From: Siniperca chuatsi
Taxonomy: Eukaryota > Chordata > Actinopteri > Centrarchiformes > Sinipercidae
Reading direction: 5' to 3'
Assembly (NCBI RefSeq): GCF_020085105.1
Contig: NC_058056.1
Location: 20,198,429-20,262,428 of the forward strand
Length of the DNA: 64,000 nt
Part shown: positions 12,385-64,000 of the stretch, piece after piece
Numbering within the stretch: position 1 is the stretch's first letter
Layout: each line of letters opens with the position of its first letter
Notes under the pieces: generated by a model
Seen by the model: the letters and a program-made list of their open reading frames with translations, nothing else
Databases searched by the model: none
What the model was told of the DNA's origin: nothing
Made by a program: the position numbers and the translations under genes

Positions 12385-27508
<15,124 letters not shown>

Positions 27509-38890: not shown

Positions 38891-41800
38891 ATGAACCCCG
38901 TTAATGCAACCGCTCTGTACGTGTCCGCCAGCCGGGCAGTGCTGCAGTGTGACCCGCGGCAGCCTCGCACCTTCGCAGAGATGTACAAGCTACTGCCCCT
39001 CTTCCGACAGTCCCTCGCATGCCTCGTTTGTGGTAAGCATCCTTAAAGTATTAGGGTGTAATAGCAATACATATCATTCGCTCTAATGTTGTTTTGTGTT
39101 ACCCCATTGCAAGATGATCATTGGTTTCGTACCGTAAATTAGTTTCACTTTGCTAAAGTGAATGAGTCTTTCATAACCTTACTATTCATATTGACTGAAG
39201 TGTCCGTGGGCGTGCGTGTGCCCGCAGCAGTTGACACGATTTGTCGTGCTCACCACCGTGGTCTCCTTAGCAACCGAGGCTGAGCCCCAGTCATCTGTCC
39301 TCTTGTCAAGATAGATGACTCCTCTGTTGTTGTGTCTGCTGCAGAGCCATGTGTTTTCTATTCATGCTTTATTTGCTCACTCCGGTTAGCTAGTGGAATA
39401 TTAACACTGGCACAGCTTGCATTTAGAGATGGGCAATATTGGCAGAATGCTATATGACAGTATTTCTGACCTCTGTCAATTATGCATGGTGTTTTTGGCA
39501 GTAAAAATCAGTAATGTGAACATAATGATTACGCAGGTTGGAGCCTTTATTTTTGTTTATTTAATACTGGGACAGATAAGTTAAGAAAAAAGTCAAAGAA
39601 ACACCAGCATTTAAGGTATAGAAATGATTAAAATCTCGCATTGAATTTTGGACTTTTGTTCAGACAAAACAAGATCACCTTAGGCTCTGGGAAATTGTGA
39701 TAGACATTTTTCATTGTCTCCTAGTGTTTAGAGACCAAATGGTTAATTGGGAAAATAATTGGCAGATTAATCAATTCTAATGGTAATTAGAACTGTTTCT
39801 TTAGAGGCCTGACAGTGAATGGATATGACTTTAAATTATTCTAGTACAACTAGTTGATTGTGCCATAGTTGCTGTATATAAGTGCAAAGTGGATACACGT
39901 GGATGAACAGCTCGCTCTTGTTTTTGTCTCAGGTAAACTGCTCCAGGATCCCATTTCCCCAACACATCCAGAGTGTCAGCATTATGTCTGCTTGGGCTGT
40001 AAAGGCCAAAAGATGCAGATCAGGCCGTCGTGCAGCCGCTGTAAGGACAATTCCTGCTTCCAGGAGAACAAACAGCTCTCTTTGCTGGTGCAATGCTACA
40101 GAAAGCTCTGCCTCTATGTAACTCATTCGCCGTTGCTGCAGTCAATCAGCAGCCATGTAGGAGGGTCTCCAGAGGTTATGGCCTTGCTAGAGGAGGTGTT
40201 AATGTCACACGAAGAGGAGATAGAGACAGAGCACCCAAGCCTAGCACAGGAAGATGTGAATCCCTCTGCCCCTGAGTCCCTTACCCCCACAGAGGCACCA
40301 CCTGCTCCTGCAGAGCTCTCAGCTGTACCACAGAGCTCGTCCTCTGACCCTCCCTGTTCCAATGGACTACAGGAATGCAATGGAGAAGTGCTGGAGGACC
40401 TGGATCCCTCGTCTCCTGAGCTGGAAGTATGCGAGCTGGTAGAGGAGCAGCCACAGGCAGGCCTGTCTGTGTCCAATACTGGTTGTGGTGGTCTGGAACT
40501 CAGTCTGACCACTGGACCTTTAGCCCCAACTCCAGGCACTGTGTGCTCACTCAGGGATGGGGGATCTAGCAGCAGGGAACTGGAGGAGGGGGAGGTGTTG
40601 CTTCTCAGTGTGGAGGAGGTGTTACAAACTTTGGATCCCCTTCAGCCCGGTCGAGATTCTGCTCATACACAGGCAGAAAGAACTCACACACACATAACCA
40701 CGGACAGAGCACACACTCAAATGTACATACAGCTGGACGCAGCTCACAACTACACACAGATACGAACAGACAGGACTAACACAGTGGCAAGCCATGGTGC
40801 TTACATACACACATCCTCCTTTGATCCTCCTCCAACCTCCAAGCCCCCGCCAGTCCGCCTTAAACGTAAACGATCTCGTTCAGAGAGTGACAGGGAAAAG
40901 GTGAAACCCCTCCCTATTGCCTCTATCCTGCAGGGCTCTTCCTCACATTTACACACTCCAAATCCCTCTCAGACACTGCACACGCAACCACCCACACCCT
41001 CCTTAACTGTACCAGCACACACATACTCGTCCCTTCCTAATGGGGCTACTCCCAAGCCCAGTCGCCCTGCCCCGAACCACAATAAAGGTGCCAGGAAGCA
41101 TGTCGATCCTGGCCCTAAGAAGCCCCATGCGAAGGCCCGCAGTGGTGGAGGCTCCAAGACCAAGGATGGAAGCAAAGACCAACGGTTGATGTCAGGCTGC
41201 CTTGTGCCCCCAGCGCCTGTCAGGCCTCCATATAAGAAGCCAGTGGAGAAGAAAGGCTGTAAGTGTGGCAGGGCCACCCAGAATCCGTCTGTGCTGACCT
41301 GCAGGGGGCAACGCTGTCCCTGCTACTCAAACCGCAAGGTGAGATTATGACCATTGCATATATGGAGTGTTTGGGGGCAATTTTTCATTGATTTTTACAG
41401 ACCACAAGCTACATTTTTTTATTTAACTAGCAGTTCAGAAGTGTAATGGCATCATCGTGTGATTGGGTGTAGATTATTGTTTTAACAATTTTATGTATTG
41501 TAAATGTAACATTTGTTGATAAAACTATAATACTTTTTAAAAATTGTTATTATTATATGGACCCCTGGAAGAGTAGTTGTCGCCAATATTACAACAAATG
41601 GGAATTCAAATGAACAAACTATGAATTGTAAGACCATTAATTGGCCTGTCTCGAAGCTTTATTTTTAAGGTAAAGATGAAAGAATTTTTAAACCACATTT
41701 GTAAAGAGAAGAACATTTGTGTAGATTGCCTGTTCATAATTAAATTCATGCACTATCATGCTGTTCTTATTCACTAGATTCTCAAAGTTACTCAAGGTTG

Positions 41801-42192
41801 GTGCAGAAATAATTTTGCAGCTTTTATGTTACATTGGTGTGATGCAAATACACTAATGTTCCTTGTCTATTTTTTGTCATCTTTCTCAGGCATGCTTGGA
41901 TTGTATCTGTCGAGGTTGCCAGAACTCCTACATGGCCAACGGTGAGAAGAAGCTAGAGGCCTTTGCCGTGCCAGAGAAAGCCTTGGAGCAGACACGGCTC
42001 ACACTCGGCATCAACCTCACCAGCATCACGGCGGCCGCGGCACTCCGCAACCCAGCAACCACCAGCATCCGTGCAAACACCCTCCTCAATGTTGCCACAG
42101 CAACGGGGACCCCCGTGACCACGGCCTTCCTGTCCCCCAGCCCCCCACAAGAGCCCAACTATGAGGACAGCCTGGAGCTGCTGATTGGATGA
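38891..42192 (+). CDS. MSL2: MSL2, E3 ubiquitin ligase of the MSL complex (3 coding exons)
   Basis: MSL2 is the RING-type ligase of the male-specific-lethal complex. It pairs with MSL1 and the H4K16 acetyltransferase MOF/KAT8 and ubiquitylates H2B in the nucleus. Exons: 38891-39032, 39933-41338, 41890-42192; phases agree, giving 616 residues (human 577). The N-terminus MNPVNATALYVSASRAVL matches the family. The RING cysteines begin at the exon 1/2 border (CLVCG) and continue QHYVCLGCKG and SCSRCKD. A conserved acidic block LLLSVEEVL sits mid-protein, then the basic KRKRSRSESD. The CXC domain (KKGCKCGRATQNPSV ... CLDCICRGC) is complete and is followed by the conserved ANGEKKLEAFAVPEKALEQ. Unusual points are an intron inside the CXC domain and a Thr/His/Ala-rich insertion near residues 290-335. 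Confidence 0.96.
39426..39800. repeat. Decayed repeats in MSL2 intron 1
   Basis: About 39,426-39,540 ('gatgggcaatattggcagaa') resembles the 7,036 family. About 39,660-39,795 shares 'ggctctgggaaattgtgat' and 'gattaatcaatt' with the repeat at 26,947-27,232. Confidence 0.45.
41339..41889 (+). other. MSL2 intron 2
   Basis: A 551-bp AT-rich intron with clean borders (donor 'gtgaga', acceptor 'ctttctcag'). No repeat recognised. Confidence 0.75.
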
Positions 42193-48500: not shown

Positions 48501-51477
48501 ATAAAAACATTAAAATTGTATCAGTTTAGGACTGCCACACACCTGGAATTTCTGAAGATACTGTATATGTTTGTTTAATATTGGGACACAGAGTAAGTGA
48601 GACATTGACTAGTCAAAAAGACAACTACAAGACACTTTGACAAGGATAAAGCAGCTGAACATCTGCAGGTCCTGACAAACATGCAGGTATGAAGATGTTA
48701 CTGAATCTGAGAGCAGCCTGGGAAGCCATGAAGCACATTCCTCACTCTGGAAAGGTATGGGTGAAGCAACATAGTACTCGCAGGTGTGTGAACATCGTGA
48801 TTATGTGTCAGGAAATCACGAGCCCTGTGTTCAAGAAGTCAGATATGCTTTCCAGGACTTCATTCCAAATGTAACTGACTCTACTTGGTGTTCATACTGG
48901 ATATTTTACTTCTGTACAACATTAAAGGATCCTCACCATCTGCTGTTGGAGGCTCTGTGGACGAGGTGACACCAGTCACATGGGCAGCAACTTTAGGAAG
49001 AGGGACCCCTCGGACCCCAGGGCTCAGGATAGGCATCACTCCTGTCAGCTTATCTGTGAAAACACAGGCAGATAAGAAAAACACGCAGGACATTTTTAGT
49101 GGATAAAGACATACTTACTTCAATTAGTAGTAATTGATAGTGAATGGAGGGATTGTTCTCACCTCTCATGGCAGTGGATATCTCCTTCTGGAATCTATCA
49201 GCCATCGTCTGGAAGAAAAACACCCAGAGAGACAGAAAGAAAAAGAGAGTGAATGGGTGGCAAGTTAAAGTATCTTGTCCTCTTCAGTTATTATGCCTTT
49301 TGGGTATCTTTAGATCGAAATTAACAACATTCAGTAATTCACCAGGGACCTTGTCACCCCCATGAATCAGTCCTGACTCTGGGTCATAGCAGTATTCCCC
49401 TGTGGGTGGTGTCTGAGTAACTGCATTTAATGTACAAACAAATTATAAGTCTAATTTCTGAAAATGCTGCAACATTGTGGACAGAACATGTACTGTGTGG
49501 ACAATCCTGTAAAAAATGGCCACTGGTGTCTTAAATATGATAAAAAGAAGAACCAAATTAACCCTGCACTCAAAAAACAACAGATAATGGAAGAATTTAA
49601 GTTTTATAAAAAAAAAAATCAAAAAAATCAAAAACCTTCTCTATGTGGTAGTGGAGCTGTTGCGTGACTTGCCAGCAGGGGTCGCTCTTCTTGTCCTCTG
49701 CTGAATCTTCAAAGTCAGAGCGCAGATTTGCATTAATCAGACAGGAAACGCTACTCTGGGAGAAACTCTCCTGCATCTGTCAACATAAAATTAGTAAAAC
49801 AAACAATGCAACCAACGATTATCTTCATTGTCGATTCATCTGTTAATTATTTTCTTGATTAACTGATAATACAGTGAGGAACAACAACAGCAAATATTTG
49901 GTATTTTTGCTGGAAAAATTACTGAAACAATTCATTGATTATCAAAATGGTTTAATAGATAGCAAAGCATAGTTTCATGTGGCTTTTGGCTTCGACAATA
50001 TGGTGGCAACACATCATTACAATGAAAATAATGATACTTCAATACATATTTTTAATCTTGATTAATTAAAAAACTCAAAATATTCTTTGTCAGAGTAATA
50101 GTCCCTTGGTTATTTAACAAAATATACAGAAGTTGTACAGGTGGATGCCAATTAGTGCATTAATATGCAATTAACTCTGACGTGGTCACAGGTGAGGTGG
50201 GCATTTTACTGGGACTCAGCCAATCAGAACTCAGCACCAGATCTATCAGCTTTTTCAAAAAGCTTTTTCTGCTTGTCATAATGTCTGCTCGAGCCTGAGA
50301 TGTGTTGCTTTAGGGTGTCACAACCCCTGAGTCCTGACTAGTCTCATTTCCTGCCATTGTTTTCTGTTATCTACTCTGCCAACTTTCTCCTCTCTCATTG
50401 TCCCACGTTAGAATGGTAGAAATTCTTGCATAACTGGGACTTTTAGCTCATATGACCTAATAAACTTCTCTAAAATATGAATCTTGCAGTATTTAATCCC
50501 TGAAGGAACAGAAAGTGTGTCTGCAGAAGATTATTCAAGTTGTTAACGACCACTTCATTGTTACGTATTAATGTCTGGGTCAGAGCTGGCCCTACCTTAA
50601 GCGATATAAGCAGTTGCTTAGGGGGCCCCCTAGAAAAGATTTTTTTTAATGAACATGAGATCATAACGAAACAAAAATTGACATTTCGTGCCATTTTTGC
50701 CAACAAATAGTGACAAAACAATAAGCTCAGAAACGAGCGAAATGGAAAATTTAGGTAGTAATAGTAATTTCTTTATACTTCCTCATCTGACTTCCTCCTT
50801 TGATCCCACCATAATTACTGAGGCCACTAGAGGTCGCCTCCTAATGATAAACTTAACTGTCTCTTGGCTCCCTATTACGTGGGTTATATACCAATTATAG
50901 TGCATTACATTTCATAGGTACAACTATGAAAAGTGAATGAGAACTGCCTCTGCTGCTAATAGGTCCTACTTTAGTCTTTTCATGCTTATTTGTACATTAT
51001 GTGTGCTTAAACTAATATTTACAGTATACAAGTTGGTTCAGCGCAAACACGTTACAATGAGGGGGGCCCCCAAACCAAATCCTGCCCCCAAAGGTCTATG
51101 GCCAGCCCTGTCTGGGGTACTAAATAGTGAGTTCAAGGTGGTATTTTTAATGTCCCATTCTTATAATCGTATGGAGACTCATAAAATTGTGTCCCTGTGG
51201 TACCCCTGCATAATGAATGGTACATAACTATGAAGCTCTGTGTTGTAGCTAAAGTTAATTTGTCATTGTTAAAATATGTGTCAAACCTCCCCTTTCCCCC
51301 AGTGAGACGGCAGTCACTTTGATGCTATCATTATCTGAAGGGGAAGACAAACGCATATCTTACCGTGCTCAGGACTTTGTTGAAGTACATAAAACTGACG
51401 GCAACCGCGATGGTCTGGAGGAGGATTGCTGCGAGTATGATGAGCCCCAGACACTGGAGAGAAACAGAAATGGCCAT
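45561..51477 (-). CDS. TNFSF10: TNFSF10 (TRAIL), TNF superfamily ligand (6 exons)
   Basis: TNFSF10 is a type II membrane, trimeric TNF-family ligand that engages death receptors and can be shed. Exons in transcript order: 51477-51364, 49776-49636, 49208-49163, 49053-48937, 46759-46506, 45770-45561; phases agree, giving 293 residues (human 281). Exon 1 encodes a short cytoplasmic tail and one membrane segment (residues about 9-32). The stalk has the family motif DPCWQV. The TNF homology domain starts at KVAAHVTG and runs through YYIYAQTYF, VQYIYKK, PILLMKSS, the conserved Cys (SACW) that in human TRAIL binds the trimer's zinc ion, and the ending SYFGAFLVG. The ATG at 51,477 has a good context (GATATGG); the frame is open further upstream, but only from a TTG. 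Neighbouring NCEH1 matches human synteny. One loop carries an extra acidic stretch. Confidence 0.95.
46760..48936 (-). other. TNFSF10 intron 4
   Basis: A 2,177-bp AT-rich intron. It holds a short interspersed repeat (47,806-47,915). No exon-like conserved frame is recognised elsewhere in it. Confidence 0.6.
47806..47915 (+). repeat. Short interspersed repeat, copy 2
   Basis: Reads 'ttaaaggcaacagtgtagaa', 'gtcccccagtggtagtatc', 'aaaaaagacactgtggcaga', 'tagtaatgcatgctgctt'. It shares the block order of the copy at 27,312-27,425. Confidence 0.7.
49800..49960 (+). repeat. 'gctgcaactaa' family fragment in TNFSF10 intron 1
   Basis: Reads 'accaacgattatcttcattg', 'tcgattcatctgttaatta', 'ttttcttgattaactgataa', the order typical of the family. 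It lies just upstream of TNFSF10 exon 2. Confidence 0.55.
50581..51110. mobile_element. hAT-like non-autonomous DNA transposon (MITE), about 530 bp
   Basis: The left end is CAGAGCTGGCCCTACC and the right end is ...GGCCAGCCCTG, whose reverse complement is CAGGGCTGGCC, so the ends are inverted repeats of the CAG(A/G)G type found in hAT elements. The subterminal blocks 'gggggccccc' (about 50,620-50,630) and 'ggggggccccc' (about 51,061-51,071) are also mirrored. The left flank ends gtctgggt and the right flank starts tctggggt, an 8-bp target duplication with one base lost on the left, as expected for hAT. There is no transposase frame. It is inserted in TNFSF10 intron 1, about 250 bp downstream of exon 1. 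Confidence 0.8.
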
Positions 51478-51579
51478 ATCACAGCGCGAGTGTGGCACGC
51501 AAATAAGTTCCGAGAAGCAAGACAACACTTCCAGCAATGGGGACAAGTCAGATCAAGCTCTGCTGCATTTCTGCTCCGG

Positions 51580-51588
51580 AGGGAGAGA

Positions 51589-51627
<39 letters not shown>

Positions 51628-51698
51628 AGGGAGAGAGAGAGAGAGCGAGAGAGCGCGGCAGTTTGTAGTTAGGTGGAGCAGAGAGAGAGAGAGAGAGT
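51580..51698. repeat. (GA)n/(GGGA)n purine tract upstream of TNFSF10
   Basis: Almost uninterrupted GA and GGGA units on the plus strand (CT on the TNFSF10 coding strand), about 100 bp 5' of the TNFSF10 start codon. It lies in the 5' leader or core promoter. Confidence 0.85.
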
Positions 51699-54080
51699 AG
51701 GTATGGAAGATTACAACAGCCTCAAGATGTCACTGTTAATAGATAGAAATGAGCTGGGAGCTAGATGCTGCACATGCAACTTTATGACGCCTTCAAGTGC
51801 TGTCGGAAATATGGAAACTTTGAGTTGAGAGCACATGCACATGTACAACCCAAATAAGAGGCAAATACTATTAATGAAGACAACTTGGGCTGACTGTGTG
51901 AGACATCAGATGACAGCGTATTAAAAGGCTATGACAATAACATGCTGATGCACCTCACATGTGGCCTGATATATTTTGTGAAAGAAACAATGATAATTTG
52001 GATCTTTAAATTGTTCTTTAAATTGTTGAAATATTTTACTCAGATTCCACTTTTTGATACACATACCACTGACAAGATAGTGCAGCATGTCATTGCAGCT
52101 ACAGTATACAACAGATTATTTTCTTTACTTCAAGGTCCATTTAATAACTGTTCTGGAGCATTCAATCATATCACATTATTTTCATCAGCAGATGGAGTTT
52201 CCCAGTTGTCATGTAGTTACATATGTTCAAATTTCCATTTTTTGGAGCACTTTAAGGACATTTGGTCTATGCTTGCTTCAAAAGTTGAGCTTTAAAGTTA
52301 ATTCTATTATTATATTAATATTGCATATTATGTATATATAAAAATAACATTTAAAAGAAAACCAGACATGTTTTACTTTACAGGCTTATAAAAAAGCCCT
52401 ATATCTATCAAGTCATGGTAATAAAAAAAATGTAAGTCCAAAAGTTACTAAACAAACATTCAAACTAATTGTTTTTGAGTATGTGGAGCATAAAGGAACT
52501 TTATATAGATAGAAAAAGTAGATCAGGTTTCTGTGCTGTGTAAAATCCTGTAGTTATGTGAAGCAGATGTTTGTAGAAGGCAGCAGTCTTTCAGTATTTG
52601 ACATTGTTTGCTCCTCTGTGTAGTTCAAAGTAGCTTTGTTCCCATTAAATCCCATTGTCCCAACATCAGCCACAATTTGTAACTGGGTTAATTTACTTAT
52701 TACTTCCCGCAAGAAGCACTTCATTGCATTACAATGATGTATTTTATTAAGATATCTGGCCTTTTGTCTGTATTTTAATCACTCTTTGTTGTAACTTTTC
52801 ATTCTCACAATTTTGTCTGTATAATACTTGGAAGTTCTCTGGTGTTTAAAGGTTAAACAGCTGCAGACAAAGTTAATTAAAGTACAACAAATGCTGTGCA
52901 ATAAGTTACTGTAACTCAAACTTTATTCTCACTCCACTGTTTACTGCTCTTGACTCCTGCATTGCAGATCCAAGTACCTCTGACTGGCTGTTGCTTGATT
53001 AAAAAAGATAAAACAATGTTGTAATGTCATGTTGTCACCAAAATCACTTGATGCGATGAGTTGTATGTATGACAGTCAAAGTCAGAAGTCAAAGCTTGAG
53101 TGGAGCACATGAAGGCAGCATCACTGCATGAAATTTGCAAGTAGCAGATAATCAGCATCTGAAAGTAAGATTAAAAAAGACCTTTTTCTTCTCTTTCCTG
53201 CTATTGTGAAGTGATCTGAGAGAATGCTAGCCGATTAGTGCCAAATGACCCGCCATTGTTAACGCTTCAATGTAGCTCAAAGTAGTATTTGTCACAGGGG
53301 AGTCATTCAATCTGCAGAACTTAACCTTGAATGATTCCTGGTGGTTCCTTTACTTTCATTCCTTTACCTCTAACCCCTGCTCCATTGTCAGTGTGAGGAA
53401 GTGAGAGTGGAGCTGAGAGAGTTCACAGCTCCTGGATGTGGATGACCCTCCCAACAATCAAGACCTGTGTTAAAATGTGTAACACATTCACACTGGCACA
53501 CATGCTGCTATTATGTTCACACAGTCATGCACATGCACCATACATTTCACAGCAGGTTCACAGGTTCACAGAGGTAGGTACTGTACTAGATTAAACTGAA
53601 AATGTTGGAAGTGTAAGAGAGGACAACATCTGAGGAAAATAAGTATTTAGTTTATTAACTTTACTGATTAAAATCTCAAAATGCGGAAGTTAAAGTGATA
53701 AGAGATTCCTGTATTCCCTGAAGTGAGTCAATTCCCAGGCTTGTCAGAGAGAAGTAGAAGAGAAGGTGAGTGGTATTTGAAGACGACTGTCTGGCCTCAG
53801 GCAGGCAAGATGACACCCTGAGAGACATGCCTGTTTACAGTCCCATGGCAAACAGACACACAGAGAGAAGGTATGTGTATGGAATTATTGCAGAAATTAC
53901 AGCCATTTACAACTATGTTCAACTATGTTTTAACATTTTCATCAACGTCCTTTCCTATCATGTTGTATGTTATTTCTTCCTCTTAGGTCCAATCAGCCGG
54001 TGACCATTGACCTCTGTCAGACATGTCCACATGCAACAGGCCCTGACTGGCTTTAATCCCCTGGTGTTTTAAAGTTTAAA

Positions 54081-54225
54081 GGAATAGATTGACATTTTGG
54101 GAAATATGATTATTTGCCTTCTTGCCAAGAGTTAAATGAGAATGTTATGTCTCGTTTGTCTAATCCTTACAAAGTGTAAAAGTAACAAGTTGTGGTTTTA
54201 TGTGGGGTTATGTGACTATTTCTGT
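54081..54225 (+). repeat. Internally deleted copy of the 'gagttagatgagaa' fish repeat
   Basis: Reads 'ggaatagattgacattttgg', 'cttgccaagagttaaatgag', then jumps to 'tctcgtttgtctaatcctta' and 'caagttgtggttttatgtgg'. The middle of the family is missing. It is the same family as the composite at 29,775-30,150. Confidence 0.7.
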
Positions 54226-55169
54226 TATATTTTTAATTTTCGGCTGTGGGGAGAGTGAACAGTAAACAATGAAGCTAATATCAATTAGTTAAAATTACAA
54301 ACAATATCGCTAGATTACACACATGCATAGTTTCCTTTGAATCCCTCCTGTGTGTGAAGGCAATTTGACTTCAGTGCTGGAATGGCGGTCTCCGCCACTA
54401 ACCATAAAAACTAATATATAGAAAAGTAAATACAAAATGTAAATACATTGAATTGTTATTGCTGAAAAATGCAGACCACAAATAGGATCAAAATTAGGGT
54501 TTCATTTCATGAAAATTTGAAATGTTTAAAACCCTGAAACTGGAACGTAACTTTGGTTAACACCAAAATCATCAAAAACTTCTGTCTCTCTGTGAGGAAC
54601 ACACAGTCCTGCTGTGAAACTGTTCGACTTAGTGACTCAGAAAAACTATTTTCCAAACCCTGAATCTGAAATCAGTTACAAGAACAATGGGAAACAGGAA
54701 AACAAAAGGAGAGCTGCTGCTTCTCTGGAAATGAAAGCAGTTTTCCCCTGAAGCGAAGAGCTTGAATAATACCCAGAAGACATATAATAGATTTAAAAGA
54801 CAGATCACGCTCCATCCACCCTGCTCTGTCCTCCACTCCCCTTTTCACTCCCCTGAGGCTTCTCCTCCCAATGCTTGTCTTGGTAAAGTCATGGAATCTC
54901 CCTAAATTCCCGTCTGAGCACTACAGCTGCTCATTGTCTCATTTATAAAAGAGAGAGTAATGCTGAAAAATGCTACAGCAGCACAATGCACGCAGCTGCC
55001 AATGAGTTAGTTACTGTGTCAGTGGAAGGGTGTTTCCCTGATAGGAAATTACTGTATATGTGAATGTGGGACCTTAGAAACAGAGCCAGGTCATTCATTT
55101 CTATCATCTATCATTTTTAATGTTAGTATGTTGTTGTTAAATTTAGGGTTAGACTAAGGATTATATTTA

Positions 55170-55410
55170 CACAGTGGTGCAGGTAGAGTTCAGACCCTTT
55201 ACTTAAGTAGAAATAGCAATGCAACAATGTATAAATGCTTCATTACAAGTAACAGTCCTGCATTCAAAAACTTTAATTTACAGAAGGGTTATCAGCTAAA
55301 TGTACCTAAAGTATCAAAGGTATTTAACATGCAGTAAAATGGCCCCGGTGAGTGTTTTATTACTGTATGTTTTATTATTGGATTATTGTTTACAATGCAT
55401 TCATGTGTAA
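55170..55410 (+). repeat. Percomorph 'acttaagtaaaagta' repeat
   Basis: Reads 'acagtggtgcaggtagagtt', 'cagaccctttacttaagtag', 'cattacaagtaacagtcctg', 'cattcaaaaactttaa', then 'aaagtatcaaagg' and 'catgcagtaaaatggcccc'. This order is characteristic of a very common element in spiny-rayed fishes. Confidence 0.75.
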
Positions 55411-57250
55411 TTACCAAATGTGTGTTAGATTAAGACCATAAAAGGTTCATGTTGTTCTCCCCCACTAGAGGGAGGTGTTGCATTGATTATTGGTGCTGCT
55501 GGATTTAATGACCCAGAAATACACTTTCTCTGTAAGTAAGAAACAGCCCATGGGGTCTTTGCAGTCTCTAATAATAGCAATGTAGAGTACATATGCAACA
55601 TTAATTATCTATTCAGCAGCCACACTGTTATTCATGTCTTTCTGGTATATTAAAACATCTATTTTAAGTGGTTCTGTTTAATTTAAGGAATTTTTCTTTC
55701 TCTGTGTTGGCTTCCTATTGGTTAATATATTTGTGACCAACTTACGACTTTTTCAAACTTTTAATTACTTTTTTTTAATAACTGGAAAGCATATCCACAG
55801 AATAGTTGAAAAACATTACACATATTTTTATGCATTTATACATAAGCATCCAAATTTGGAGGAGCTAAAGGTGACATATAATAACTATGTTGGTTGGATG
55901 ATACATTTAATGAATGCATGGAGACCCTAGAAACAATCAGTAGTAAAAAAAAAAGTGATGTGTTTAATTAATTAATTATTTTCAGTCTATTTAAAGTCTT
56001 TTAACTATTGCACTTAGTTAAAAGTGCAAAAGTTAAAATACAAGTTGTACTAAATAGATAGCAAATAAACAGATAGCAGCTGCAGATTAAGTAATGAACA
56101 ACAGGCATTGTCCAATGCATTAATTGAAGCATAATCTTTATGCATGACGAGCATTTTCTCCTGTTGACTCACTGCAGCTGAATGTTACTCAATGTTAATC
56201 AACACAAGAAATATGCAGTTTTTCTACTTTTACAAGGTGCATGTTGCCATCTTATATGACCAAAAGCACCTGAATATGCAACACGGCAACAACAAGTCAT
56301 GTACAACAGTCAAAGTGAACATTGCTTCAGTCACATACAGCCTCCAGGTACAGTGAAGCTGCAACATTCACACTTTTACTATCAGGGTTGTTAAAAGGCA
56401 TTCTGGGAAACGTGAATGTCACTAATGAGGGAGGTTGAGCAAAAAGCAGTTTTACTGAAAACTAAAACATAAAAAATCCACCTAGTTACAAAATAACATT
56501 TGACACATTGAACATCACAGGCTGATGATGCATAGCAGTGTCTCTGGAAGTGGATTTAGTTTTTTTAAGTAGCAAACAAACACAACAATTTGTGCTTCAT
56601 GAGCATGACTTCATGTTTTTTATTGACACCCTTTACCAGTTCCTTCATAAGTCACAACAGTGGACAGAGCAGAGGACATTTGTGTCCCATATGAAATGCT
56701 TCAAAGCTGTGAAAATTAAATTTAGAAATAAAATGACATTATTTGAAGCCCTTGCAGATTCTCAGTTTGAAAACTCTTTAGCCAGTGCTGACCCAGCAGA
56801 GCGGATATTGGGATGAATGATTTACTACTAATTTTGACAAGTGAATGCAACTTGCAACTTCAGTGATTCATTCATGTCCCATGTATCCCTATTCAGGCAT
56901 TTAAATCATTTAAATGTTCAGATACATAGAATGTCCTGTAAGTAGAACACAATGTGAATAATAAATGGAAGGAAACTTAAGGAAATAGTGCATTTTGTTA
57001 GTGATTTTCAAGTGTCAACATCATCTGTCAGGGTAGATGGGTGTTACTACAGCTAGATGAGTTGTCAAAAAGTTCAATACTGTCCACAAGAAAGGTAATG
57101 ATTAATGGATTCCCCAATTTAAAAAAAAGTACCTTAACAAAGCAGTGTGCCTTGATTTTTTTGTGAGGAGAGACACAATATGATTTACAAATGTTATCTG
57201 TCCCATGTGTGATGTGAACATTGTTCTTTCTTACTACAAGAAGAGTCAAC

Positions 57251-57820
57251 AGCCATGCAAGCAGCTCTGTGAGGTTGTTCTTAAGCACAGCTGTGTTTTG
57301 AGCTAAATGCTAATGTCAGCATGCTAACATGCTCTCAATGACAATGCTAACATGCTGATGTTAGCATAGTATAATGTTTACCATATTCACTTTCTTACAT
57401 GCTAACATTTGCCAATTAGCATTAAACAAAGTACAGATGAGGCAATGTCATTAGTTTTGCAGGTGTTTGGTCATGAAGCAAAGTTTTGCACAAATTAAAA
57501 CTTTCAACTGATTATGACACTGGATGGAAAGTTAAGGGATCACCAAAGTTATTACAAATTATTCTGAGGGGGACATGAATGTGTGTGACAAATTTCATGA
57601 CAATCCATCTGATAGTTGTAGAGACATTTCACTCAAAACCACAAATGTCAACCTCATTGTGGTCCTAGAGGAAAAGTGGATAACATGACAGTCTGTACAA
57701 AACTATGGCAATAAATCAAATAGTCGTTGAGATATTTCAGTCTGGACCAAAGTGGTGGACTGACAAACAGACTAACATTGCCATCCCTAGAGCCATCTGC
57801 TTTTAGCATGGCTAAAAACA
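57251..57820 (+). repeat. Percomorph interspersed repeat, copy 2 of 2
   Basis: Same family and orientation as 44,238-44,792: 'agcagctctgtgaggttgtt', tandem 'atgctaac' blocks, 'tgagggggacatgaatgtgt', 'gacatttcactcaaaaccac', 'ggaccaaagtggtggactga', 'ccctagagccatctgctttt'. This copy keeps a tail with 'tctggaccaaagtggtgg' that copy 1 lacks. Confidence 0.8.
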
Positions 57821-58430
57821 CTGAAATACTGAACACTGTTGAAATAGCCTGGATTGCATCAAACCTGGTTTCATATTATTTCAACACTGGTAACACAACA
57901 TTTGTGAGGCGTTATGACAAAACATAACTTGCTGGCTCAAAGTTTTTTTTTTAAACCACTGCCACTGCTAACATGAACTTTTGATCGGTGGCTTCCAACT
58001 TATAATACTTTTTCCAATTACAACCCTGGTGACATATACTGCTCGTGTGTTTGTGGTGTGGATAAGAATCAGTGTAGTGATGTGGTTCCTCCCAGTGGAA
58101 GCAGCTGATTAATTTATCCATTAGTGGAAAGCTTGTGGCTGTAGTATTTTTATGCATCTATTAAGTATTGTTGTTCGCTGGTCACTGTGTCAGCCATGTT
58201 AATGTTAACTATTTGCCTTTCTCCAATGCAGACCTTAAAGAATCTTCTAAATATCATATAAACTTTTTATGTACCAAGGTGATGCGTGTGTATCTGCAGG
58301 TACATAAAGGCCCTGAGCTTAGATCTTATATTCTTATGCAAAGAGCAGATGTACAAGCCCTTAGCAAGTCTGTGATTCATAAAGCAAGGATTAGTGCATT
58401 TTTATCAGTGAAACACAAACACACATGCTC

Positions 58431-61400
58431 TTACAAGTTGTTCTTGAGCCAGTTGAGGTAACCCCTGAGTGCTCTCTTCCCTACATCAAATTCCAATGGC
58501 CAGGTTATAAAGCTGAAACATCCGTGGAAGCCGTCCTCATAGTGGTCGTTGGTAACTGTGACACCTGCATCCTGTAAGCGCCGTGCGTACATCAGGCCAT
58601 CATCTCTCAACACGTCATGCTCGCATGTTAGGATGTACGCCCGAGGGCATTTAGCCAAAACCTCTGGTCCTGCTAACAGTGGTGCTGCCCTCACATCCAG
58701 CAGCCCCTGCAACTCCTTCACTGCCCCCTGTGTACCTTTTTCCACAATCAGAGGCTTGTAGTTCTTCTTGTATTTCGGGGGACAGGAGGACGGTCCAGTC
58801 TAGCCGTGCCCTCAGCTCTGGGGTGATGTTTGAGTGGTGTAAGGAGCTGTGGTTGTTTGCCATCAACTGGGACTGCAGGGAGAGGTCAGCACCGAGGTAC
58901 TGCAGCCAGAAGCGGACCATGAGGGGCCGGTAGAGGATGGGTATGTATTGGTTCTGCAAGTAGGAGGGCGTGTTGAAGTCCAGAGCCTGGAGCACTGGGT
59001 AGATCAACGTCTGGACGCTGAATTTCACACTCATAGTGTCATCTATGGAAATCTGGGGAAATATAAAAACATATAAGGCCTTAATCTCTTGATTTATTTC
59101 TACAGTGCATTGTTACACACAATGCTACAGGAGATGGCTTCTGTATGTACCTCCTGAGCGACCGCAGCAGCCAGGTTTCCTCCAGCACTGTCACCTGACA
59201 CAGCCACACGCTCTGGGTCGATTGCATACCTGGCCAAAACCTCTGGGGACAAGAAGTGCTTGGCAGCAGCGAGGCAGTCTAAATACGGCACCGGGAAGTG
59301 CACCTCTGGATACAGACGATACCTACACAGACATTGATTGACAAATGATAATTTACTGGAGGTTTAGAAAGCTTTGGAAAATGTGATTGTAAGCACTCAG
59401 TTCACTTGACGTGAGGAGTCAACCTGTAAAAACAGTTGTATAATATCATCTGTGGCTCTGAAGGGAGCTTTCCAAAGTCTGAGTTAACTTACAAATAAGC
59501 TTTTTATGTTTCTTAAAGTATAGATCTGTATCAGCAACAGTAGATTAATGCTGCAGGAGGAGACACACTTACTCAACAGAGACCACAACGGTGTTGAGCT
59601 CGTCAGACAACATCCGGTTGATAGCATCATATGACCCCTTCTCTGAGGATGGGCGAGAGAAATGGAGGAGTACTGAATTATCCATTTACTTGAAAGTTTA
59701 GTTACTACTCCTCTTGTGGAATCTGGACAAATCAATCTCCTTAAAGGCAGACAATGTAACATATCACATTCAATAAAACAACTGAAAATACTATCAATCT
59801 GCAGGTTTCTTAAGGCCAAATTTAAGATATTAATGTTGCGTTTATGGTTTGCATTTATTTTTAATAATATTTAAAATACAAAATAAAGAAACAAAGCTCA
59901 CAAAACAAGCCTTTTTCCAACTGAATACAGGGCTAAGAGCAAAAACTATAGAGAGAAATAATATGCACATTGTGCTACTAACACTGGGTGCACTATTTGC
60001 ACCTGTAAAGCAAAAACATTTCTGATTATGTGATATTAATATTACTAAGACAGAAAGAATGTCCGTACTCACTGGCACTGCCGAGGGCCCAGCCTCCTCC
60101 GTGGAAATACATCAACCCCCTCCTCAGGTGCCCCTCCCCTCCAGCCGGGGGCTCATAAACACGAACTGGGATGCCGACGAAAGTGATGTCGCTGACTTTC
60201 ACTCCAGGCATGACCCCCCCGCCGGACTCAGAATTGTGCAGCCCCTTCATCATGCCCTCGAAGCCCTCTGTGGACTGCCTGATTGACTTGATGTAATGGT
60301 CAAAACCCAGCCAAGCCTTCAAAGAGGCCTGAAGACAGCGAAGGGAGGGAAGAGTAAATAAAACTACACCTTGAGTGTAGCTTCATAGCAGACAAATGAA
60401 AGATTCAAGACATATTCAAGCAACTAGTGTAAACAGCAGGTGGGAGAAAGGAATTTGGGAAAAGACAATCTCTTGGCAGAGACTTGAGACACAAGTGTCT
60501 CACCCAGTCACCTCTGTCCTTCTGCACTGTATCTTACTGATGTTTCTCAGCATGTCTGCCCTCCTCCACACAAACATCTCATACTGTCTTAATAGTTGGG
60601 TTCAACCAAGGCCAGCAGACACAGCTGCTTGGCACAGTGGGGGCTCAGAACCAGCTAGCTACACCGAGACATGTTGGCCTTAATAAATATCGGTTTTATC
60701 AATTTATTAGACTTTTGAATGTCACTTGAAATGTCAGTTGGATGAAAAGAATTTGGGGGTGTTGAGTTAGTTCTACTGTATCAATTTTGCTCCCTTTCTT
60801 TTTAAACTGTCCATCGTGAGTCTGACAGTGTTAGTGCAATGCTAAATCAGTGGAGTACTCTTTTAATAAAATCAGTATCTTCCACGCATGAGATCAGTGC
60901 ATCCCTTCTTTGGATGTATTTTAATAAACTTCCTTAGCTAACTGCACCCGGAATAAAAGAAAAGAAATATTTCATTCTAAGTGCAATCAGCATTTTAAAC
61001 CCAAAAAACAAAGTCACAAATCTTGCCTCACAGTATTTCATTTGATGTTTTAATGCTTTTTAATGCTTTGTTTTATGTACTTTTTCTGAATTCTTTCAGT
61101 TATCACATTTATTCTGTGTGTTCTTGTGCTGCTTTTATGTTTTATGTGAGCTGCAATTTTCAACAACAATAAAGTTGTATTCTATTCCATTCTATTATCA
61201 AAAACCTATTTTTTCACTAGTGAGTTTTTAAAACAACTTTGTTATATTTATAATACGTGAACACACTCTTGCACATAATGTCAGCTGCAGAAAAGATAAA
61301 AAGAGCAATTTATCTCAGTGCAGTTTAAAGCCTTTTAAGCCTCTTCTTCTACAGTACATCATACTCAAACTAGATGCTGTGGACTGTTTTAAATGTTAAA

Positions 61401-62845
61401 AGAACACATTTAAACCAAAATGACAATGGCAGACCAGTCCACTAGTAGGACCTAACTTAATCTTATCTCAGTGGCTTCTTTCACACTTCATTATCTGGAA
61501 AAGAAAGATACAATAAAATGTAAAATGTTGTATAAAGAGTTTTATCTGCTTTGGAGCAAACAAGACCTCATAAGCAGCACATTAATCTGCAAACTCCCTC
61601 AGCCAGTGTGGCAATAACTGATAACATTACTCTTCACCTACCGTGTCGATGTAGAACAAAGGTGAGGGTAAAGACACAGGCCCAGAATAAACTCCCTGGT
61701 GACAGCTTTGCAATAGATTAGCATTATGACAGCCAGCGTGACAGTTTTAAATATCAACCTGTTAATCTACTGAAAAAGCTCGGTAACACTTTATTTGAAG
61801 ATGTGAAGACACCTGACATGAAAATGAAGTCTTTATTAAGGTTTATGACTTTGTCATTAAGTGTCATTCGGTCAATTATGTCACTTTTAATGCAAAGCTG
61901 ACATTGTTTGAGATGTCTTTGTTATGACAACTTGACATTAAACAAGAAAACATAACCATAAACATGCCATAGCAGGCTTAATTATCAAACGATTTAGCTT
62001 TATGTGTTAAAATTACATTATACTGTCATATGTGCTTGGTTTTGACAATGACTGTCATGAGACCATTATAATTGTGTCATGAATAATTCCCTTGACCTCA
62101 AGTGAAGTGAAACCATTTGGACTTGTCATAAAGATGTCAGTAATGTTATAATGCCAGTTTGCCAGATTTATGGAGTTTCCAGATGGACAGAAAGCTTTAC
62201 TTGTTGCTAAAGCAACGTTAGCTAACTTAACCACATTGGTGGTGGTTGAGGTGAGTTTCCCCCCTTCACTGTGAAGCACTTTGGGTATCAAGATAAAACG
62301 CTAACGTTATAGAAATGTAATCCATTATTATTATTAATATAACTGCTAACTGCTGCTAATTGTAACTTCAAATAAATACACATTGTAAGACAACGATTTT
62401 GCAACTATGCAGACGCTAAAGTTGGGCATTTCAGGGTTAATGTTATTGAACACATGGCATAAGTAGGGAGGGTCAAAGTCCTTGTCTGCACAGGTGTGTT
62501 ACTGTGTTGGAGGTTAAGAGGTGGGTCTTTTATTTATAACAACTGCTATATTTGATCTTATTTAGCTGAAACAGTGCGCAGATAAGGGTGAAGATTTTGT
62601 GCAGATTAGATCACAGATGAAGTTGCTGCACCTGCTGTATCCAGCTGTCCACTTACAGCACATATACCAGAATTTATTCCCAGTGAATACATCTCCTCTC
62701 TTACCAGGTGCATCGTTGTCCGGAATCCAGCATCCAGCATCATCAACTTCCACGGCTCCTGGATGGCATCAGGCAGCGGGATGTAAACGTAATAAGCCAC
62801 CGCCACCGTTAATAACACTGTAACAACACCTGGCAGCAGCCTCAT
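58431..62845 (-). CDS. NCEH1: NCEH1, neutral cholesterol ester hydrolase 1 (5 exons, frameshifted in the last)
   Basis: NCEH1 is an ER-membrane serine hydrolase of the hormone-sensitive-lipase/arylacetamide deacetylase family that cleaves cholesteryl esters and 2-acetyl monoalkylglycerol ether. Exons in transcript order: 62845-62705, 60328-60073, 59642-59573, 59322-59151, 59052-58431. Residues about 5-21 form the N-terminal membrane anchor. The oxyanion-hole motif HGGGWA begins at residue 123, and the nucleophile elbow GDSAGG puts Ser at 201. The catalytic Asp (HDVLRDDG) and His (DGFHG) lie in the last exon, but in a different frame: an extra base in the G run at 58,777-58,781 shifts the frame after about residue 305 (LLSP). 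As given, the frame ends at 58,651 after 346 residues and lacks Asp and His. Allowing for one extra base the total is 419 residues (human 408). It may be a sequence error, a polymorphism or true loss. Confidence 0.92.
61040..61198 (+). repeat. Retroposon 3'-tail-like fragment
   Basis: Ends 'caacaataaagttgtattc' followed by 'tattccattctattatc'. The AATAAAGTT plus short TATTC repeats is typical of LINE 3' tails in fish. The upstream body is not identifiable. Confidence 0.35.
61781..62170 (+). repeat. Fish repeat starting 'ggtaacactttatttgaag'
   Basis: The opening 'cggtaacactttatttgaag' and repeated 'tgtcat'/'tgacat' words (tgtcattaagtgtcatt, gacttgtcataaagatgtca) match a dispersed fish element built of such words. 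It lies in NCEH1 intron 1. Confidence 0.6.
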
Positions 62846-64000
62846 CTTGTATCTGACAGCTTCAGTGGCCTATCTTCAGTGACTCCTGGGCGAGCTGACA
62901 GATGACAGGATCCAGGCTGACTCTGCTGGCTGCAGCTGATACTCTCTGATTTGTCACTGGAGGGACTGGGAGGGCCAACCGGGCTCCACAGTCCGCACTA
63001 GAAATGACTCTGAGGGACCGATAAGCACGGAATTAAACACTTCCGTTCAAAGAATCTTCAAAATAAAACCTTTATTGACGTCCCTTTTACTCTGTCTTCT
63101 GGAAACTAAATTGATTAAATTAATTGATTGAAAGGCAACACTTGGACTAAATCTATTAAGATTTGATCTGTTTAAAGATAATGTATCGTTATGAATGAAG
63201 CCAGTAATATAACTTTGCAGTCACTGCATATGGTTGCTATTCTTAATTTTAAAAAATAGTAATGAAATACGAAATATCTATGGTTACAGTTACACGTTTG
63301 TAAAGTACTCTTTCATAAATATTACGAATGCCACGTAATATTTATAAGCCTACAAATTTGTTTTTGTTGTAGTATTTTTTATTGCTAGATTTTAATCTAA
63401 TAAAAAAATCCATAGTATTTTGGTATGGTTGCATGGTAAACTTAAGACGTTTCTTCTTTAGAAACTTGGCAAGGCTCACGCTTTTATTCTGAAGGCAGAG
63501 GGACAACAACGAATGGACATCTAGGAAATGAAGTTTCTTGTGACAGCTGTTGGTGGGTACCACATTGTGTTACATACATGTGACCGCGGAGAGGCACAAT
63601 AGAGCTGCAGACTGCAGCCAGGACAGTGAAAATGTAGTTACTGCAATAACAAAGTTGGCTAGGAGAACTGGGCTACTTTAACAATTGAAAATCTTTTGTT
63701 ACCTGTTTTGAAAATGCAGATGGAATCAATGTTCAGTTTTCTGTTAATGCAAAACATCATTAAGACCATAACAATATGCTCCTACCAATAATAATGTAAT
63801 AATCCTACCAACATGTATCTCCCATTAATGTGAGAAAAGAAAAAACTGTTAATAAAGTTTAAACACAGCATATTGGTTAATAAAATAAATCAGAATGTGA
63901 TATATGTGTATTAACTTTTGACTATTAGTTAATTATCAATTCAGCTGTTACATTTTATAATAGTAAAAATGCATAATCCCTGTTAATGCTGTAAAGGTCA
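62846..64000. other. Region upstream of NCEH1 to the window edge
   Basis: The NCEH1 5' leader and promoter must lie in the first few hundred bases (about 62,846-63,060, moderately GC-rich). The rest is AT-rich with no recognisable exon. By human gene order ECT2 would be the next gene, beyond the window. Confidence 0.5.

Follow-up and report, generated by a model that had tools for sequence, protein, structure and literature searches.

The last exon of an NCEH1-like gene of Siniperca chuatsi goes out of frame by one base, probably through an assembly indel error in an otherwise intact locus

Gene content of the window

The window analyzed here is a 64,000-base stretch of Siniperca chuatsi contig NC_058056.1. 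Within positions 12385-62845 of this 64-kb window lie STAG1, PCCB, MSL2, a TNF-family gene and NCEH1, in that order. The four neighbors of NCEH1 were located as follows:

12385-26900: STAG1, found with a working copy of the human sequence by tblastn and spliced alignment
36514-31217: PCCB, found with a working copy of the human sequence by tblastn and spliced alignment
39869-42192: open reading frames of MSL2, with Pfam RING and CXC matches
near 46.5-46.8 kb: TNF-family gene, by Pfam

The human counterparts of the STAG1-to-NCEH1 set are split between 3q22 and 3q26. An apparent intron at 41339-41889 (gtgaga...ctcag) falls within the CXC domain of MSL2, after CPCYSNRK and before ACLDCICRGC; in human MSL2, the CXC domain lies in one exon. 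A search of positions 50000-64000 for repeats of at least 25 bases returned no direct families and no inverted pairs, and no Rfam match reached the gathering score in the window. Eleven tandem repeats were found in the window, the last at 52003-52027, and none falls in the NCEH1 gene.

A five-exon NCEH1-like esterase gene

We modeled a five-exon NCEH1-like esterase gene, with GT-AG introns throughout, between 62845 and 58431 of the minus strand:

62705-62845, minus strand: exon 1 (141 bases), ATG start and donor gtaaga, encoding a hydrophobic N terminus, MRLLPGVVTVLLTVAVAYYVYIPLP; boundary set by hand
60073-60328, minus strand: exon 2 (256 bases), with HGGGW, the motif of the oxyanion hole, at 60103; hand-set AG/GT boundaries
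59573-59642, minus strand: exon 3 (70 bases), AG/GT boundaries, identical in the hand model and the spliced aligner
59151-59322, minus strand: exon 4 (172 bases), with GDSAGG and the catalytic Ser codon from 59189; its open reading frame matches Abhydrolase_3 at 2.1e-16
58431-59052, minus strand: exon 5, the last (622 bases), with its frame broken within; placed by hand model, spliced alignment and removal scan

In this model, the introns measure 2376, 430, 250 and 98 bases and all four keep phase. The spliced alignment, which starts at human residue 7, agrees with the hand model for exons 3-5 and gives the identical 60073 end of exon 2. For exons 1 and 2, it instead carried exon 1 to 62653, placed a 20-base exon at 61830-61811 and began exon 2 at 60226; we retained the hand-set GT-AG model over this split, and the model is at its least certain where exon 1 joins exon 2. 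Joined, the exons give 1261 coding bases, a multiple of three plus one.

By spliced alignment, the product is 51.5 percent identical to human NCEH1 over 400 aligned residues, the human sequence being a working copy, like the STAG1 and PCCB queries. In tblastn with the same working copy, the piece in the downstream frame of the last exon scored 56.3 percent identity and the other four pieces of the locus 47.3-55.8 percent. Pfam Abhydrolase_3 is found on both sides of the break, in the exon 4 open reading frame (above) and in the downstream open reading frame (2.3e-13), which covers profile positions 148-209 of 210; searched singly, neither the exon 2 open reading frame nor the one that contains the start of exon 5 matched any Pfam family. 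Against solved esterases, the downstream open reading frame reached a best E-value of 3.4e-10, with 45 distinct sequences at E <= 0.01.

NCEH1 is a putative name, given on similarity to the human sequence. The locus shares with known NCEH1 (KIAA1363, an AADAC-family serine hydrolase of the Abhydrolase_3 family) the HGGG motif, the GDSAG Ser, the HDVLRDDG Asp and the DGFHG His. The murine triad is given in PMC9229287 as Ser191, Asp348 and His378, and the working human sequence places the three residues at the same numbers. The identity to human NCEH1 and the TNF-family gene nearby are only leads toward orthology. In the part of PMC4797157 that concerns the TNFSF10 and GHSR neighborhoods, NCEH1 appears as a flanking gene for one marsupial.

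The last exon changes frame and loses two catalytic residues

Unlike known NCEH1, the locus as written carries a net one extra base in its last exon, and the catalytic Asp and His are out of frame. The positions concerned are as follows:

58767-58794, minus strand: possible interval of the one-base break, from the removal scan; includes the C5 run at 58777-58781
58651-58653, minus strand: premature TAA in frame 0 of the last NCEH1 exon, codon located
58614-58616, minus strand: codon of the catalytic Asp (HDVLRDDG), outside the written frame; the motif aligns with solved esterases
58524-58526, minus strand: codon of the catalytic His (DGFHG), outside the written frame; the motif aligns with solved esterases

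In frame 0, LDWTVLLSP ends at residue 305 and is followed by EIQEELQ..., a run of 41 unrelated residues, and then the TAA. The homologous continuation, KYKKNYKPLIVEK... (KYKKNYKP...), lies in the next frame and runs to a TAA ending at 58431, this frame being open for the last 114 codons of the gene, up to the natural stop. A sequence-only reading of this DNA had described the same switch, with homology after LDWTVLLSP only in the next frame, and the readings of both frames bear it out. It had also put the length of the written protein at 346 residues with a stop at 58,651, which agrees with the TAA at 58653-58651 and with a product of about 305 native and 41 out-of-frame residues. The loss of the DVLRDDG Asp and DGFHG His that it reported holds as well, both codons lying past the premature stop. 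The HGGG oxyanion hole and the Ser/Asp/His triad motifs are thus all encoded at the locus, but for Asp and His this holds in the shifted frame alone, and the protein as written does not hold the complete triad in one reading frame.

Frameshift-tolerant spliced alignment needed one 1-base skip for NCEH1, which it placed at 58782. Forbidding frameshifts brought the score of the exon 4-5 stretch down from 715, to 659 with a minimum intron of 20 and to 585 with one of 40. GC content by codon position is 0.56/0.37/0.59 downstream of the break vs 0.57/0.40/0.70 upstream; the order of the positions is kept and the third position is lower. Neither the hand model nor the spliced alignment contains a second stop, frame break or splice-site loss.

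To place the break, we took bases out of the last exon one at a time, at 56 positions (58750-58805), using single-base removals only. The score rose from 365 with none removed to as much as 514, in keeping with the earlier claim that taking out one base restores continuity. The same reading had put the switch in a run of five identical bases. That run exists, as GGGGG on the plus strand at 58777-58781 (C5 on the minus strand), and a break there fits; it is, however, one of several placements, and two positions next to it score higher. The top score of 514 was reached at 58782 and 58783, which adjoin the run, while the five run positions scored 506 each. The C5 run is a plausible, natural suspect for the break site, but the break is not pinned to it, because 27 of the 56 removals (58767-58771 and 58773-58794) came to within 12 points of the top score.

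Coding sequence elsewhere in the window is unbroken

PCCB showed no frame breaks and no gaps over 15 exons and 1518 bases, at 88.5 percent identity; the alignment covered residues 34-539 and left out the first 33. STAG1 likewise showed none over 31 modeled exons and 3771 bases at 88.1 percent identity, with 9 inserted and 8 missing residues in the alignment. The MSL2 coding sequence, about 1751 bases with approximate boundaries, is covered by two open frames. Five runs of at least five identical bases occur in the 5274 bases of PCCB and STAG1 (a count that leaves out a doubtful, 15-base last STAG1 exon at 27485-27499) and 10 in MSL2, with no visible slip. NCEH1 itself has five further such runs, all in open frame. 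In its exon 2, G7, C5 and G5 runs lie in open frame at 60116-60220. Along the plus strand of the window, C runs of at least five bases are about twice as frequent as G runs (43 vs 20); 33 of the C runs have length five, vs 14.8 expected under a first-order model, as do 16 of the G runs, vs 11.9 expected.

The assembly around NCEH1 is not grossly error-prone, since no other break was seen in the coding sequence of PCCB, STAG1 or MSL2. Some assembly errors could nevertheless escape the aligner, because it recovered 24 of 30 single-base indels planted in PCCB. One break in about 8 kb of coding sequence is compatible with a moderately polished assembly and also with a single real variant.

Origin of the frame break

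Removal of a very short intron within the last exon, of 25 nt (58791-58767) or 46 nt (58735-58690), would restore the frame; both candidates are GT..AG, and with frameshifts forbidden the aligner chooses the 25-nt intron at a minimum of 20 and the 46-nt one at a minimum of 40. Their scores of 659 and 585, however, lie below the 715 of the one-base skip, and on these scores we rejected them. Both are shorter than the other introns of the gene (98-2376 nt), and 25 nt is below the usual vertebrate minimum. The 25-nt intron would drop about eight residues, and the 46-nt one would leave about 15 wrong-frame codons and drop further residues. We regard a mini-intron as highly improbable. A programmed +1 shift of the ribosome at the run of C, which would yield the full-length enzyme, is improbable in the extreme. 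The run does contain a CCC codon, and a stem there folds modestly better than shuffled sequences (z -1.45), but 15 of 200 shuffles did as well, the shift site has no stop codon, and human NCEH1 is single-frame across the corresponding stretch. This candidate was rejected on the nonsignificant fold. The frame break itself is what would be expected of an old pseudogene or decayed duplicate, yet the gene retains its exons, splice sites and catalytic motifs, has introns and sits among STAG1, PCCB, MSL2 and the TNF-family gene. Within the window, tblastn revealed no second NCEH1 copy, the sole off-locus match being an 11-residue, chance-level one at 2105-2137 (E 2.7). An old pseudogene is very unlikely indeed, because a second lesion was not found, downstream identity is not degraded and the codon-position GC order is kept. 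An old unitary pseudogene was rejected on its one frame break, where several independent lesions would be expected, and a processed pseudogene on its four GT-AG introns. These results support the sequence-only reading in its choice of an assembly error or a very recent mutation over an old pseudogene.

Between those two origins, we judge a consensus or assembly indel error, in a locus that is otherwise an intact NCEH1, to be the probable one. An indel error, possibly in the C5 run, would have shifted the frame of the last exon, and the product of the true sequence would be a full-length neutral cholesterol ester hydrolase of some 419 residues, with nothing unusual about it. We infer this technical origin from the break and the open, conserved downstream frame observed here: one 1-base skip suffices, the four introns are GT-AG and in phase, and the 114 open codons carry their Abhydrolase_3 match at an identity no lower than elsewhere in the gene. 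Technical indels are known to occur at homopolymers. In a bird genome, PMC7263694 describes homopolymer indel errors that led to frameshifts in an unpolished mitochondrial assembly. The NCEH1 break resembles such errors in its net single-base change, in the homopolymer within its interval and in the conserved frames on either side. It differs from clear cases, and the evidence weighs against an error to that extent, in that the scan does not favor the homopolymer over its neighbors and PCCB, STAG1 and MSL2 are without breaks.

That unbroken coding sequence, which gives no evidence of a high local error rate, speaks for a real, recent frameshift allele in the individual or population, and a homopolymer is also a natural site of mutation. 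Such an allele would encode the 346-residue protein without catalytic Asp and His, predicted to be an inactive esterase; we consider it possible, although on the doubtful side. The absence of a second lesion cuts both ways: together with the lack of a clear sign of relaxed constraint it counts against a real allele, and it would fit a young one. Under neutral decay, with indel fractions of 0.10-0.15 and a bias toward transitions both assumed, some 165-215 disabling changes accrue per unit divergence; the probability that a second lesion is still absent is then 0.5 at K 0.003-0.004 and only 0.05 by K 0.014-0.018. A real mutation would thus be young, roughly K < 0.014-0.018 under these assumptions, because NCEH1 shows no second lesion. 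Nonsense-mediated decay is not expected for a stop in the last exon, and translation would therefore yield a dead or unstable protein. The literature searched on nceh1 in fishes gave no pointer to this allele, which does not show that none exists.

Whichever its origin, technical or a recent mutation, the frame break is an ordinary thing. If the assembly error that we favor is the cause, the finding is an annotation warning only, as automatic annotation could report a truncated NCEH1. Tentatively, and with somewhat less confidence than in a real allele as such, the lineage may instead carry a recent NCEH1 null allele, translated as a catalytically dead 346-residue protein and amounting to a natural knock-out; if so, the break would be a case of naturally lost function in a lipid-ester hydrolase, and its interest would be modest.
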